From Jaminaea rosea (lineage: Eukaryota > Basidiomycota > Exobasidiomycetes > Microstromatales), in the NCBI RefSeq assembly GCF_003144245.1, contig NW_020289976.1, forward strand, positions 1,240,001 through 1,304,000: 64,000 nt of DNA. Reading direction: 5' to 3'. The translations under genes were made by a program, and so were the position numbers. Of this stretch, positions 1-8,028 are shown piece after piece; position 1 is the first letter of the stretch; each line of letters starts with the position of its first letter. Under the pieces are notes generated by a model. That model was given only the letters and a program-made list of their open reading frames with translations. It had not been told where the DNA came from and searched no databases.

Positions 1-10
1 TCTCACCATC

Positions 11-1928
11 ATGTCAGCTCCCGCGCAAGTAGCGTGGGACTCGCTCCCAACAGCAGAATGGACTCTTCAGCAAGTAGACGCCGCTGGCTCGTCTGGCATC
101 CCAGACTCGCGCGAGCTGGTAGGCCGTCCGCCGATGCCTGCCAACCTCGAAGACGAAAAGTCCCTCGATGAGCACCACAAGCGTCGCGCTGACTGGCAGA
201 TGGCGCTTCAGGGACACCTCAAATCCCTTGAGGCTCGTCAAATGATCGAGTTCCAGTCACACGACGAGATCACCTACGCTCTCACGGCCGAAGGGTACGG
301 GATTGCCCACTCTGGCTCGCAAGAGGCACGTCTCTTTGCTGCGCTGCCTCCCGGGGGAGACGAGGCCAAGACCTTGGATGAGCTCAAGAAGGAGCTCGGA
401 GCTGATGTCCTCAAGATTGGCCAAGGCAAGGCCTTCGCCAAGAGGTGGGCGAGGAAGCATCCTGAAAAGCAAGGCGCATTGGCGAGGATGCCCGGCGTCG
501 AGGAGATTGTGGACGATACGGCTGAAGACCTGAGGGAGATCAGGAGGAGTGGCACATTGCAGGATGGACAGAGGGTCAATGACCTCAAGAAGCGCAAGCT
601 AGTGGTGCAGAAGTGCGTGCAAGCCGCGATGATGGAGCCGTTAAACGATTGTTCTCCAGGCTGATCTCCTCGTCCTCTCTTCTTTTCGCTGCGCAGGAAG
701 CTCCTCTGGTTCTCAATCACCAAGGGCCCGCAGTTTAGCCTCAAGATCGAAAAGCTCGCAACAGATCTTTCAGCTGAGATGCTCCAATCAGGCGAATGGA
801 AGACGCGTCCCTTCAAGAAGTACAACTTCGACGCCGAAGGTGTCATGCCCGTCACTGGAGCATTGCACCCGCTGTTGAAAGTGCGAGAGGAGTTCAGGAA
901 CATCTTCTTTGAGATGGGATTCACCGAAATGCCCACGAACCGATTCGTCGACTCAAGCTTCTGGTGGTGAGTAGGCGGGCGAGCGCCAACCCGCAGAGAT
1001 GGCGACTGCAATCTTACGCCCTTTCCCCACTCGCCACGCCAGCTTCGACTCCCTCTTTGTCCCGCAACAGCACGCCGCTCGCGACATGCAGGACACCTTC
1101 TTCATCAAGTCACCCGCCGCAGCGAAGCACATCCCAGAGGACTATCTCTCTCGCGTGACCGCCGCCCACGAGGACGGAGGACCATATGGCTCGACAGGGT
1201 ATGGCTACAAGTTCTCCCGCGACGTTACCGAAAAGCTTGTTCTCCGCACCCATACTACAGCCGTGTCTGCGGCCATGCTGTATGAGCTAGCGAACAGGCC
1301 GGGCGGGTTCAAGCCGGCCAAGATGTTCAGTATTGATAGGGTGTTCAGAAATGAGGCTGTCGATGCGACGCATTTGGCCGAGTTCCACCAGGTTGAGGGA
1401 GTCGTCGCGGACTACAACATTACATTGGGCGATCTCATCGGTTTCATGCAGTGAGTAGCACCGCGAGGCAAGACGTGCGCCCTCGCTCACCTCTGCCTTG
1501 TCTCTCTGAATCCCCTCCACCCAGAATCTTCTTTGCCAAGATGGGCGTCACCAACCTGCGCTTCAAGCCCGCCTATAATCCCTACACAGAGCCATCACTC
1601 GAGATCTTCTCTTACCACTCTGGCCTGGGCAAGTGGGTCGAGATTGGCAACAGTGGCATGTTCCGTCCAGAGATGTTGAGGCCTATGGGCCTACCCGAGG
1701 GCGTGAATGTGCTTGGATGGGGACTCAGTCTGGAGAGGCCGACGATGATTCGTTATGGGATCAACAAGTGAGTGCGGCGGGCGAGAAGAGAGTTATTGAA
1801 AAAAAGGGAGAAGAGTGACTGACTTGATTTGCTGCTTCCTCCCGCACGCTGACAGCATTCGTGACTTGGTGGGACACAAGATCAGCATCACTGACGTAGA
1901 GAGAGCGCCTGCTGTCAGGTTCCCGTAA
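11..1928 (+). CDS. FRS2: Phenylalanine--tRNA ligase alpha subunit, cytosolic
   Basis: This gene encodes the catalytic alpha chain of the cytosolic (alpha-beta)2 phenylalanyl-tRNA synthetase, which charges tRNA-Phe. I see five exons: 11-612, 697-966, 1043-1450, 1525-1767 and 1856-1928, joined by four introns of 74-88 nt with GTGAGT or GTGCGT donors. They give an intact 531-residue protein, close to the family's usual 490-510. The N-terminal part (about 1-200) resembles the winged-helix tRNA-binding region. The class II catalytic core includes the block [19 protein letters not shown] (motif 2 region), a [19 protein letters not shown] block, and a C-terminal [12 protein letters not shown] motif 3 followed by YGINNIRDLVGH. 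The start is the first ATG in the window in a good context; little upstream sequence is visible, so an earlier exon cannot be excluded. Its 3' end converges on the secreted-protein gene at 2031, 102 bp away. Confidence 0.96.
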
Positions 1929-2030: not shown

Positions 2031-2688
2031 TCAGCGCCTGCTGCCACCATCGGACCCCTTCATGCCGCGGCCACCACCGCCTTCTTCGCTTCGGCGCCCC
2101 TCCAACGCCCTTGTCTGCGTCAGATTATGCGAGCTGAGTTTTTGCCAAATGGCAATCGTCCTAGGAGCGTATTTGGAGGTGAACTTGTCCGGCCATTCAC
2201 AGTCGTCACTTTTTGAGGTGAAGTAGCAGTGTTCGGGGTCAATACAGGCGCCCCACGTATCCCAGTCGCAGTCCTGTGCAAGAAAGAGGAGAAGCGGTGA
2301 GGCATGCGGCGAGCGAGAAGCAGGAGGTCATACGCACATCCGCATACCCTCCGGTACCGCAGGCCGTATCTGTCTCGCGCGAGGGAGTCAATGTAATAGG
2401 TCAGCTCCCTGCCCCCCTTTGCCACGCTCGCTCCTCAGGTGACTCACAAATCTCCAAAACCCCTTCCCTCAGGTATCCCAAGTCGGCAACCGTCTTGCCT
2501 TTGCACTCCCACGTAGCCTTGTAGGGGCGATGCTTGTGGATGATCGAGATGCACCATAGCCTATACCCGAATTCCTCGGGTGGCGTGCCTTGGTCTTGCC
2601 ATTCGCAGATGCGATGCTCGGAGAGGCTGGGATAAGGGAGGGCGAGCAGGAGTACGAAGAGGGGGAGGAGGTGCAGGAGAGCACACAT
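2031..2688 (-). CDS. Small secreted eight-cysteine protein, copy A
   Basis: This is the first of three tandem paralogues; I recognise no named family. The exons are 2448-2688, 2338-2369 and 2031-2273, giving 171 residues. Residues 1-23 form a clear signal peptide with a leucine-rich core, so the product is probably exported. The mature part has eight cysteines (28, 46, 62, 84, 93, 101, 107, 116). Shared landmarks are CEW near the N-terminus, VADLGYL before intron 1, a tiny second exon with one Cys, DCDW at the start of exon 3, and CEWPDKF followed by IAIW. Intron 1 is phase 1 and intron 2 is phase 0, as in copies B and C, but the third intron of B and C is absent here. After the IW motif this copy carries a Gly/Arg/Ser-rich tail of about 37 residues that B lacks; the tail could mean a missed 3' intron or a different stop. 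Its role is unknown; secretion and cysteine pattern suggest an effector or surface protein, by inference only. Confidence 0.8.
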
Positions 2689-3206
2689 GACGGAGTGTCG
2701 AGGAGTGGGAAAGGCGTTGGCAAAGTAGAGTGCGCGAGATGTAGTTTATCATTAGGTGGTCATACGACCTCGCGAGATTGCGCAGCTGACCTCCTGCGCC
2801 GCAATGACAACGATGACACTGCAGTGACCCTCGACCCACATTTCATCCGGCTAGAGGAAGTCGATGTCACCTCGCGCTTTCTCAGGCGAAAAGTCAAGGC
2901 GCAACGACATCGGCAGTGCGAGACGGTGAGGCGCCGAACCTCGCCGCATATAGGTGAAGGCGCGGTCGTGAGAAAGGCTTGATGGTTTGCTTGAAGCACC
3001 CCAGTAGGGCGCAAAGAGACTGAAGCAGTCAGCAGCAAACGCAACGTAGCGCGGGCGACATGGGAGAAGATTGCACTAGCATTCTGATTGAGCAGAGACT
3101 CGACAGAGAGAATGCTTGCCAAGAAGATTGAGCAGGGCCGTCCGATTCTCGGCCACGAAAGTCAGTCTCTCGTAGTGGCGCGACACCCTCCCTCAAGACT
3201 CAGACA
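2689..3206. other. Intergenic, promoter of copy A and 3' flank of copy B
   Basis: No credible gene is seen in this 518-bp stretch; the open frames lack plausible starts or homology to the neighbouring family. It must hold the promoter of copy A. An A/T-rich element reading GATAAACTA on the minus strand lies about 60 bp upstream of the copy A start and could serve as a TATA-like site. Confidence 0.5.
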
Positions 3207-3902
3207 CTAAAAGCTCTTCCTCCAGATGTCAACCTTGGCTGGGTACGTTCCCGCGGGAAATCGATCGGGCCATTCGCCTTTGCGTAAACATGTCAAGGTA
3301 GTCAGCGCTCGCTCTAGTCGACAACGGACGAGTTGTGAACCTACAATCGTCTTTCGAACTCATGTAGAGGCATGAGATTTTCGACTCGTCCACTGTTGGG
3401 CCGGCCTCGCCGATGCAGACGCCTATGTACGGCCAGTGGCAGTCCTGCAAGGACAGGGCGAGATATGGAGGTGAAGGTCAGTGGAACCCAGCGCCTCAGA
3501 GAAGCGGCAAGCAAACACATACATGTCGAAACTTGAAGTAGCCATTGAATGAACAAGGGCTTGCTGATGCACCCGAGGAGACAGGCACAGCTCAGTCGGC
3601 AATTCCATGTGCCCAGTCACCTCAGTTCACTCACCAAAATTGATCGTCTCCGCCTTCAAATACCCATAGTCAGCCACGAAGTCCCCATTGCCTTGATTCT
3701 TGGGGCAATAGTACCTTGCATGCGAGTCGTTGCTGACTTGAGGTGTCGCGGTGCAATAGTGTTCATACCAGTACGTCGCTGGAGAATCAGGACCGGCATC
3801 CTTCCAGGTGCAAACGTGGTGGGTGGCCACGACGAGTGAGGTGAGAAGGAGCAGGGGAGCGAGCGTCCAGGGCAATGGCAGGTGCTTGGGAAGAGGACGC
3901 AT
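3207..3902 (-). CDS. Small secreted eight-cysteine protein, copy B
   Basis: This is the second tandem paralogue, 159 residues, from exons 3635-3902, 3523-3563, 3345-3444 and 3207-3277 (intron phases 1, 0, 1). A signal peptide covers about residues 1-26 (leucine-rich core, VVA before the likely cut). The eight cysteines are at 31, 50, 66, 93, 105, 113, 128 and 137. Motifs shared with A and C are CTWKDAG, an N-glycosylation sequon NDSH, VADYGYL, SPC in the tiny 41-nt exon, DCHW, and CEWPDRF then VDIW four residues from the end. The last intron splits the eighth cysteine codon, exactly as in copy C; that position match, together with the restored family motif downstream, is the main support for the splice model. 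I chose the ATG at 3902 because it places the hydrophobic segment near the N-terminus; in-frame upstream sequence would bury it. Function is unknown; a secreted, disulfide-rich protein is likely. Confidence 0.83.
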
Positions 3903-4558
3903 CGTGGGTGCAGTGGCGTAGTCAGAGGTGACTGACGGTTGAGAAGACGAGAGACTGCTGCCTTGAATCAATGCTGTGCTGTTTAAAGCTTTATGGGCGA
4001 GATGGCTGAGGCAAGCTGGCACCGGTATGTCTTTGATGCCATCACAAAGTCGGCCAACCTAAGATCCCAAGCAAATCGGGGCATCGGCCGACTCGCAGAA
4101 GAGGTCACGGCTGTAGCGCTGTCATCGGAGCATCGTCCGGGGCCCCTCTTGCTCGTTGCTTTGCCCCCTTTGCTCCTTGCTACTGCACGTTGCCTGCTCC
4201 TGTCGAGCGCCACCGTCAATGATTGGCCCTGCCCTACGACCCAAAGCACCCGTGCGAGCCAACTGATTGCAGCGAAGGCTCATCTTGGTGGAGGCGAGGG
4301 CTGAGCAGCTTGCTGCCACCACGGCAAGATGATGGTCGTTGACGCCGTCTTATCTCGAGAGATCGCAGCTCACAGTGGTATGAAATGGTATTCAGGACAT
4401 TACCGAGAGAGTTCACCGCCGCCGCCGCCACTACCACGGCAGAAGACCAGACTCTGAACTTTGGTAGACAAGGCAAGGTAGCCTCTCCCTCCCCCCTCTC
4501 GGGCGCTTTTTTTCTGTTCAGTCTGCCGAGTAGCTATGAACAAGTGCACAGCTGGCCT
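3903..4558. other. Intergenic, promoter of copy B
   Basis: This 656-bp stretch separates copy B from the 3' end of copy C. No convincing coding sequence or RNA gene is seen on either strand. On the minus strand a sequence reading CATAAAGCTTTAAACAG lies about 90 bp upstream of the copy B start and is a candidate TATA region. Confidence 0.5.
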
Positions 4559-5303
4559 TCAGTATGAGGGAAGTCGCCTCTTTCCGAGCGTAGCGTTGGT
4601 GCTTCCACTACCAATGCGATGCCAGATCTGCACTGTGGTCGGGCGGGTGGTCGCTGTGAAGCTGAAGGGCCATACGCCTGTTCAATAGTGGAGGGCAGGG
4701 TCAGCTGAAGGCACACAGTGAAAGAAGAAGAAATGCAGGATGTTCAGGACGCACAACTATCGTTTCCGTTGAAGTAGAAGCAGCTGAACGTGTGCTTGTC
4801 GTGATGGGGCGCGGCGTTGCCCAGGCAGGCGGCCCAGAATTTGTAGTCGCAGTCCTGCTAGGGCAATGTGAGAGTCAGCTCCCATGGCACGATTGCGAGC
4901 GAGTTGCTGTGCGCATACGGGGGAGTAGCCAGTTATGGGAGCGCAGGGTGCGGCTTCAATGGCCAGCGTAAGGAGTAAGTCAGCCCCTGGGTCGCTGCTG
5001 CACCCCGTCTCGCAACATTGCCCATGCTGGTCGAGCACTTCACCCACCAATCTCAAGCGTAGACGGTCCAGCGAAACCCCAAGTGGCCACCCTTAGACTG
5101 CTACAGTCGAAGACGACGTGACTGTCGTTGAAAGGCTTGGCCACAGCGTCACAGTAGTACGTGTAATTGGCGTGATGTGGTGAGTTGTGACCTGCCCCTG
5201 AATCAATCCAGCGACAGTAGCCGGCTTGATTTGCCATTGCAGTGGGTACTGTGGTGAGCGGTAGCAGGAAACTCAAGAGAAGGGAGTGAGTGAGAAGCAT
5301 CAT
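4559..5303 (-). CDS. Small secreted eight-cysteine protein, copy C
   Basis: This is the third tandem paralogue, 169 residues, from exons 5048-5303, 4919-4953, 4755-4854 and 4559-4677 (intron phases 1, 0, 1, the same as copy B). The first donor is the less common GTGGGT. A signal peptide spans about residues 1-24, ending TAMA. The eight cysteines fall at 30, 51, 67, 89, 99, 107, 122 and 131. Shared landmarks are CRWIDSG, the sequon NDSH, APC in the 35-nt second exon, DCDYKFWAAC, and CVWPFSF then VQIW. The final intron again interrupts the last cysteine codon. A 20-residue tail with a further possible sequon (NAT) follows the IW motif. An in-frame ATG at 5399 exists but would put about 32 residues before the signal peptide, so I prefer 5303. 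Function is unknown. The copy lies 645 bp from the divergent TrmB-URA4 gene. Confidence 0.82.
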
Positions 5304-5948: not shown

Positions 5949-8028
5949 ATGGCTCGCAAAGGCAAGATGAAGCATCGCATGCACACGAATCCCTTCAACT
6001 ATCGTCACGCTCTGCCCCTCATCGACCAAAAGGAGCTCTTTGGCCGTGAAGCGCCTCTCGCACTCGATGTAGGCTGCGGTCCTGGAGCATTTACTGCCGA
6101 CCTGGCCCGCAAGCATCCCGAGTGGAATTGCATAGGCAACGAAATCAGGCGTCACTACGTCGAGCTTACGGAGGAGAAGCGCGAGCAGGGCAACCTGACT
6201 AACCTGCGAGGGCTCTTTGCCAATGCCAACTTGCAGCTCCCAGCTATGCTCCCCGACGACAGCATCGTCTTCTTCTCGCATAACTTCCCGGACCCGTGGT
6301 TCAAAAAGCGACACGAGAAGCGCCGAGTGTTGAACCTTAAGTTCCTCTACGACATGCGCCCGAAGTTCAAGGATGGATGCGAGCTGCACGTCATGACCGA
6401 CTACCAACCCATCGGAGACAGCATGCGCAAGGCCTTGATGAACTGCTCTTTCCTGAAGCCATTGCGAGGCAACCACGACTTTATCGAAGAGAGCACGACG
6501 GGCATCTTTAGTGAGAGGGAGCTGGTTCATCAGGAGAAGCGCGGCGAGAAGATCTGGAGGATGGCGTACGTCTACGATGCCAGTCTGCCGGTGGTGGAGC
6601 CTCCGCCTGAGCTCATGGGAACCAAGAAGTCGGGCGAGGCGGGAGCGGCTGGTGAGGGCGGTGAGGAGTCGGATTCAGAAGACTCGGACGAAGAGATGAG
6701 CGGCGAAGCTGGACCGTCTACCTCCAATGGCAAGAGGAGCCGCGAGGGCGCGGACAATGAGAAAGCCTCATCAAGCAAGAAAGTCCAGCTTGCCGACGGA
6801 TCGAGCGCTGCGGCTTCTTCATCAACTGGCGTCGATAGCATCGAGCTCACGGCGCCAGCCGACTTCCACGTCCACCTTCGGCAAGGCGAGATGTCCGAGC
6901 TCATCGCACCCCACGTCGCTCAGGGAGGCATCTCCCTCGCCTATGTGATGCCTAACCTCGTCCCGCCCATCACAACAGTGGATGCAGCTGTCGCCTACCA
7001 CTCCACCCTCAAAAAGATCGCGCCGGACACCGACTTCTGGATGACACTCTACTTGCACCCGAGCTTGACGCCTGAAGAGATTGAGAAGGCTGCGCAAGGT
7101 GGGGTGGTGAAGGGAGTGAAGAGCTACCCGAGGGGTGTGACGACGAACAGTGAGGGAGGCATCGAAAGCTACGAGGCTTACTATCCGGTCTTCGAGGCTA
7201 TGGAAAAGCACGGACTTGTGCTCAACTTGCATGGAGAGGTGCCATCAGACGCGGAGAAGGTGAGTCAAGATCGCGGCGAGATGACGAGAGAGTCTGGTCG
7301 CGCAGTATCGATTGACAACTGTTCCACACCGCCGCTAGAACATCACCGTCCTCAACGCCGAGGCCATCTTCCTCTCCCACTTGCACAAGATCCACGCTCG
7401 CTTCCCGTCCCTCCGCATCGTCCTCGAGCACGCCACTACCCGCGCAGCCGTCGAGGCGGTTAAAGCCTGCGGCTCAACAGTGGCATGCAGCATCACTCCT
7501 CACCACCTCGAACTCATCGTAGACGACTGGGCAGGCAAGCCATTGCACTACTGCAAGCCCGTGGCCAAATGGCCGGACGACCGCCAAGCACTGCGCGAGG
7601 TGATTAAAGAGGGACATCCCCGCTTCTTCTTGGGAAGCGACTCGGCGCCGCACCCACTCGCTAGCAAGTACCCTTCGGCCGCGACTGTGGAGGGTGGGGC
7701 AAGCGGACTGGCTACCAATTGCGGCTGTGCTGCGGGCGTGTACACATCCGTGTGCCTGGTACCGCTGTGCGCTCATCTGCTGGAGAGCTTTGGCGCGCTC
7801 GACAGGCTGCAGGACTTTGTCTCGAACAATGGGCGCCGCTTCTACCAGGTCGAAGCGGGCGAAGGGGCAAAGAAGGTCAAGCTGGTTCGCACGGCGGGCA
7901 GAACGGGTGGTGAGGTGCCCAAGGTCTGCATACACCCGCGACATATTGGACTGCACGATGCTGATAAGGGCAAGTTGCAGGTGATCCCCTTCTGGGCGGG
8001 AAAGAGGTTGGGATGGAAGATCGAGTAG
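5949..8028 (+). CDS. URA4: Fusion of bacterial-type tRNA (guanine-N7)-methyltransferase and dihydroorotase
   Basis: Two exons (5949-7259 and 7339-8028) encode 666 residues with two enzymes in one chain. Residues 1-220 form a TrmB-type tRNA m7G46 methyltransferase: SAM loop DVGCGPG (40-46), NFPDPWFKKRH from residue 112, TDYQP, and a C-terminal HQEKRGEKIWRM. These motifs resemble bacterial TrmB more than fungal Trm8, which has a FPDPHFK block and needs Trm82. Residues about 221-294 are a Ser/Glu/Gly-rich acidic linker with a KRSR-type basic patch. Residues 295-666 are dihydroorotase of the yeast Ura4 kind, which makes dihydroorotate from carbamoyl aspartate in pyrimidine synthesis: HVH metal ligands at 307 and 309, the carboxylated lysine in GVKSYP (K391), NLHGE, LEHATT, GSDSAPHP, and the family ending IPFWAGKRLGW. 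No stop or splice site separates the two halves, and no Met lies just before the dihydroorotase domain. Separate products by alternative promoters remain possible. Confidence 0.9.

Follow-up and report, generated by a model that had tools for sequence, protein, structure and literature searches.

What the window genes A, B and C are, and what their products might do, is the question raised by a 64,000-nt stretch of Jaminaea rosea DNA (contig NW_020289976.1, positions 1,240,001 to 1,304,000; hereafter the window). The three genes are neighbours on the minus strand (A, 2031-2688; B, 3207-3902; C, 4559-5303). As a preliminary description of this DNA had stated, every product carries eight cysteines after an N-terminal signal, seen here as a hydrophobic core. 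The spacings C2-C3 (16), C5-C6 (8) and C7-C8 (9), given as differences in residue number, are kept in all three, and a C-terminal motif is common to them (CEWPDKF..IW in A, CEWPDRF..IW in B, CVWPFSF..IW in C). Pairwise identity within the trio is indeed low (31-36%). Their exons were read by hand and then recovered by splice enumeration scored with a hidden Markov model and by a splice-aware profile aligner.

Kinship among A, B and C was found to be real, but they are not a family of three, being part of a larger one with no fewer than 87 genes in the 16.6-Mb, 21-contig genome of J. rosea. Protein searches of this genome placed the family at 17 sites on contigs C1, C2 (the contig of the window), C4, C7, C10, C14 and C20. 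The 87 models, made up of 83 from the splice-aware aligner, three recovered neighbours and one later find, are a lower bound, and the count is near closed because the last search rounds brought one new place. An exon-1 profile scan of the whole window (E ≤ 1) found no family gene beyond A, B and C. Contigs C10 and C20 carry 39 and 33 members, respectively. Groups of two or more genes (gaps < 6 kb) number 13 and hold 83 of the 87 members, with four standing singly; the largest, at C20:168-183 kb, consists of 17 genes on one strand. Across the eight-cysteine frame, all 87 matched the family profile at E ≤ 1e-23, a value that refers to the 87-sequence set and to a profile built from 28 of its members. 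Two subfamily profiles, A1 with 28 rows and A6 with 24, matched each other over 140 columns (E 2.7e-56), and alignment A5 equals A4 minus P0010 and three misaligned window exon pieces. At the level of sequence, common descent of the 87 genes is shown.

A hydropathy rule detected an N-terminal hydrophobic core in 86/87 members. Counted from five residues before C1, the length after the signal peptide was mostly ~120-160 residues (mean, 135; range, 116-206). Five models lack a script-set start codon, with a Met within the first five residues in three of these. A decayed fragment with stops (around C20:177499-177854) and a 3′ piece (C20:211174-211260) lie between intact members, and such copies fit birth-and-death turnover, as expected.

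The exon modelling was checked independently, since the deposited protein BDZ90DRAFT_267064 is 100% identical over 151 residues to the two-intron model of paralog C10_353086. The deposited protein of gene C, P0004 (BDZ90DRAFT_230623), has intron 1 as modelled and reads through intron 2 (within window 4755-4953, minus strand), so that C5-C8 are missing, which weighs against our eight-cysteine model of this gene. Because paralogs retain the C5-C8 part, we take the shortened protein to be a probable annotation error, although intron retention cannot be told apart from it. When an intact intronless member was used as a full-length query, it was itself not among the matches returned from the protein database. 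This absence and the shortened model of gene C mean that the secretomes of such fungi may be undercounted.

Conserved cysteines and paired losses

The strong structural constraint proposed for the trio is supported by the conserved frame and by the profile matches of all 87 members. All eight frame columns are Cys in 77/87 rows, with C1, C6 and C8 each present in 87/87 and C7 in 86; these counts include two re-spliced models, C7 is unsure in C20_202960, and splicing is unsure in C10_571550, C10_362125 and C1_271802, where the aligned C5-C8 may be shifted and so affect the counts. Other near-invariant residues (of 87) are P36 (86), D123 (86), W127 (85), P137 (85) and A70 (83). Among the three spacings fixed in the trio, C7-C8 alone holds family-wide (9 residues in 86/86); C5-C6 is 8 in 64/83 and C2-C3 is 16 in 53/82.

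Paired loss was found for C2 with C3 and for C4 with C5. Both C2 and C3 are missing from C20_212467, C10_420408 and C10_353953 (a model without start codon), and likewise from C10_571550, where the splice is unsure; both C4 and C5 are missing from C20_201547 and C20_202960. C3 alone is lost in C4_1015345. Fisher tests associated the losses of C2 with C3 (p = 4.0e-5; 8.6e-4 without C10_353953) and of C4 with C5 (p = 2.8e-4), with paralogs as non-independent samples, C10_571550 and C10_362125 excluded, and C5 scored as present in C1_271802 and C14_86958. In a FastTree tree, C20_201547 is sister to C20_200889 (support 0.99), and its loss of C4 and C5 looks like a separate event because this sister keeps both. 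The pairings C2-C3 and C4-C5 fit the predicted strands of P0001, where C2 (residue 44) belongs to strand 41-52 and C3 (60) to the next strand, 55-60, and the loop that separates strands 77-80 and 99-106 contains C4 (84) and C5 (95). From these models, each protein would probably contain up to four disulfides, with two peripheral ones (C2-C3 and C4-C5) and two core ones predicted among C1, C6, C7 and C8. Natural paired cysteine loss yields disulfide predictions that can be checked.

A His at profile position 23, three residues before C1, is kept in 77/87 members and has no evident role. It could recall secreted enzymes such as the copper-dependent lytic polysaccharide monooxygenases (LPMOs), which are beta sandwiches with a conserved N-terminal His. 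We regard an enzymatic role of this type as very improbable: signal cleavage usually follows an Ala-x-Ala rule, and the His is therefore expected at mature residue 2, not 1; it is also absent from 10/87 members, and the listed 30 most conserved columns contain no second His.

Predicted fold and comparison with known families

Structure prediction gave eight beta strands, probably arranged as a sandwich. The weak top rows of a Foldseek search include carbohydrate-binding modules (2wdb, E 0.19; 1wcu, E 0.96), and BFVD gave no match at E ≤ 0.001. Such rows, together with about 1.3 N-glycosylation sequons per protein, would suit fungal surface, adhesion or self-recognition proteins, for example wall-bound lectins acting where the fungus touches a leaf, an insect or a mating partner. 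This role appears improbable, however, as the matches to carbohydrate-binding modules do not rise above chance and neither repeats nor a Ser/Thr-rich stalk were seen by eye in 83 models.

No described family had been recognised for the trio, and this holds for Pfam, NCBIfam, PDB sequences and the literature searched. NCBIfam gave no match for 28 members at E ≤ 0.1, and among PDB sequences no described family was recognised by sequence. In Pfam, the IL6Ra-bind domain (PF09240) was matched by 2/28 members (best E 0.003) and by 1/24 (E 0.00056), other matches being above 0.006; a rescan of ten chosen members gave no PF09240 match, and fn3 was matched by one member (E 0.068). IL6Ra-bind and fn3 are sandwich folds. 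Although this would agree with the models, the matches were sporadic and weak among the 52 members scanned, and kinship with either domain was provisionally set aside as chance. CFEM, hydrophobin, KP4, cerato-platanin and Hce2 were all absent from the Pfam matches at E ≤ 1 of these 52 of the 87 members, scanned as alignments (28 + 24). Within the literature on Jaminaea effectors, secretome or cysteine-rich proteins, no title or abstract opening deals with this family, most subscription papers being outside reach. On these comparisons the eight-cysteine secreted family of J. rosea appears to be undescribed.

Hydrophobins and CFEM proteins are fungal, secreted, often multigene and have eight cysteines. 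The J. rosea family resembles them in cysteine number, secretion and gene number, but the members scanned have no Pfam match to either. Hydrophobins also have pairs of adjacent cysteines, whereas the smallest distance between neighbouring frame cysteines here is 7 among the spacings listed (the eight commonest per gap, with 21/581 values outside).

The smuts that carry the Mig1 family belong to the same subphylum as Jaminaea. According to two sources, Mig1 proteins of Ustilago maydis and other smuts are secreted, clustered in the genome and strongly divergent in sequence, and their conserved cysteines are described as forming disulfides (PMC12503489, PMC4081819). The J. rosea family shares secretion, clustering, divergence and conserved cysteines with the Mig1 proteins as described there. 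Mig1 is there given 13 members in a structural cluster and four conserved cysteines (PMC12503489), in contrast to 87 models and eight cysteines in J. rosea.

The ToxA-like effectors (ToxA, Avr2/SIX3, SIX7 and SIX8) resemble the family in being small, secreted and all-beta, a fold that is predicted here, and Avr2 was the only fungal effector recognised among the matches listed (the best 50 VIA rows per model). TRAF/MATH domains are cytoplasmic adaptor domains, unlike the J. rosea proteins with their secretion signals and many cysteines, and there is no sequence match between them.

Age, distribution and possible role

Median identity across the 3,570 pairs formed by 85 models was 36%, with a maximum of 72%. 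For the 25 closest pairs, the proportion of synonymous differences (pS) was 0.62-0.82, near saturation, and that of non-synonymous differences (pN) was 0.16-0.31, by gene-wide Nei-Gojobori counts that omit the first 22 residues and use 85 of the 87 models, two re-spliced ones being excluded. The family is old and under purifying selection on average, and the genome holds no recent burst. The fast sequence change suggested earlier was not shown, as even the closest pairs approach saturation at synonymous sites, with pN much lower than pS.

Searches of ~5.8 billion proteins returned ten relatives, four of them from J. rosea (P0002, P0004, P0006 and P0009); P0001, P0003, P0007 and P0008 come from other assemblies. 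P0006 has no close relative among the genomes of 84,980 prokaryote species. In the tree, almost zero branch length separates P0001 from its neighbour C4_1011534; P0003 is the neighbour of C20_197968 (support 0.985), and P0008 is paired with P0007 (0.993). Because P0001 and P0003 group with J. rosea members and P0007 groups with P0008, part of the family's diversity probably predates the split from the organisms that carry these four proteins. The family may also be wider, since relatives were sought by shared 5-residue words, a method of low recall (a 28-row alignment query missed P0006, one of its own rows).

That the open frames yield no product and are chance or decaying sequence is scarcely credible. 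The few decayed copies on C20 would agree with it, but pN well below pS between paralogs, a frame kept across introns in most models and the relatives in other assemblies all argue against it.

Discussion of large, divergent families of secreted cysteine-rich proteins has centred mostly on parasites. J. rosea belongs to the Ustilaginomycotina (Exobasidiomycetes, Microstromatales) and is not called a pathogen in the texts consulted. In the review PMC7766764, strain MCA5214 is counted among phylloplane fungi, a term also applied there to Ustilago maydis; PMC8405466 concerns J. angkorensis. At least 87 members in the 16.6-Mb genome of a phylloplane yeast would make the role of such families outside known disease directly testable.

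Weighing this evidence, we lean, if not strongly, towards a set of at least 87 secreted, eight-cysteine beta-sandwich proteins with variable binding loops, produced by old duplication and divergence and aimed as binders at other leaf organisms. The sandwich would serve as a stable frame whose variable loops bind extracellular partners, and divergence after old duplication would have given rise to the set of binders. Like effector families, they might target molecules of the plant apoplast or neighbouring microbes. More tentatively, the proteins could be an undescribed superfamily of four-disulfide secreted beta sandwiches that forms the interaction arsenal of a leaf-surface yeast and might be a branch of the ToxA/TRAF-like effector fold in basidiomycetes. 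If true, Jaminaea would pass through a stage, so far unrecorded, of manipulating a plant, an insect or its microbial neighbours, and part of the arsenal would have escaped annotation.

Mean net charge (K+R-D-E) in the family is -4.3. Typical antimicrobial peptides are cationic, and a cationic antimicrobial peptide was rejected on this value. Toxins against competing leaf fungi or bacteria, comparable to killer toxins and close in kind to the reading preferred here, also seem unlikely, though less so than surface proteins. Many divergent tandem paralogs, secretion signals and cysteines fit interference competition, as does life on the leaf surface, but the negative charge does not, and the members scanned gave no Pfam killer-toxin match.

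Introns, origin of the trio and neighbouring genes

Introns occur in 51/87 members and are lacking in 36/87. Among the intron-bearing members, 43/51 have one at position 83/phase 1 and 45/51 at 125/phase 1. A single retroposition behind all 36 intronless copies was not supported, the quick tree requiring at least eight changes between the intronless and intron-bearing states; its backbone is poorly resolved (49/88 inner branches open), so that neither one event nor several can be read from it. L034 (C10:526222-526976) and L023 (C10:544616-545341) have apparent GC-AG introns at 44/phase 0, and cysteine 2 is lost if GT-AG sites alone are allowed.

The matching introns reported for the trio were borne out for intron 1 (phase 1, after '..LEI/INF') and intron 2 (phase 0, before the C5 exon), but intron 3 (phase 1, inside the C8 codon) is confined to B and C. 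At profile position 94/95, the trio has a phase-0 intron that 0/84 other members share; being exclusive to A, B and C, it supports their tandem origin. A tree constrained to a trio clade was not rejected (log-likelihood 30.4 above the free quick tree; approximately unbiased test, p-AU 0.786). Two observations weigh against this origin: both free trees separate A, B and C (three changes for three rows), and the highest identity that each of them reaches (41-47%) is with a member on C20. The old tandem duplication first proposed is thus compatible with the intron and the constrained tree, and at odds with the free trees and nearest identities. Exons are given in Table 1.

Table 1. Exons of the three window genes (window positions; the scripts place the start of gene C exon 3 at 4857, its cag-cag acceptor being ambiguous)
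Feature	Position	Strand	Content
Gene A exon 1	2448..2688	-	start codon, signal peptide, C1-C3
Gene A exon 2	2338..2369	-	C4
Gene A exon 3	2031..2273	-	C5-C8 undivided (without third intron), EWPDKF..IW, Gly/Arg-rich tail, stop
Gene B exon 1	3635..3902	-	start codon, signal peptide, C1-C3
Gene B exon 2	3523..3563	-	C4
Gene B exon 3	3345..3444	-	C5-C7
Gene B exon 4	3207..3277	-	C8, EWPDRF..IW end, stop
Gene C exon 1	5048..5303	-	start codon, signal peptide, C1-C3; then intron 1, phase 1; same splice in deposited P0004
Gene C exon 2	4919..4953	-	C4; then intron 2, phase 0; P0004 continues through intron 2
Gene C exon 3	4755..4854	-	C5-C7; then intron 3, phase 1
Gene C exon 4	4559..4677	-	C8, WPFSF..IW end, stop

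Upstream of the trio, a spliced gene on the plus strand (window 1-1928) looks, by eye, like the alpha chain of phenylalanyl-tRNA synthetase. On the other side, also on the plus strand, one open frame (5949-7260 and 7339-8028) encodes a tRNA (guanine-N7) methyltransferase-type domain (PF02390, E 3.5e-34) connected through a Ser/Glu-rich linker to a dihydroorotase-like part; the second segment and the dihydroorotase name were assigned by eye, the Pfam amidohydrolase matches being weak and under cut-offs. The two parts are separated neither by a stop codon nor by an evident second start, and the frame is likely a fusion of the Trm8-Ura4 type.
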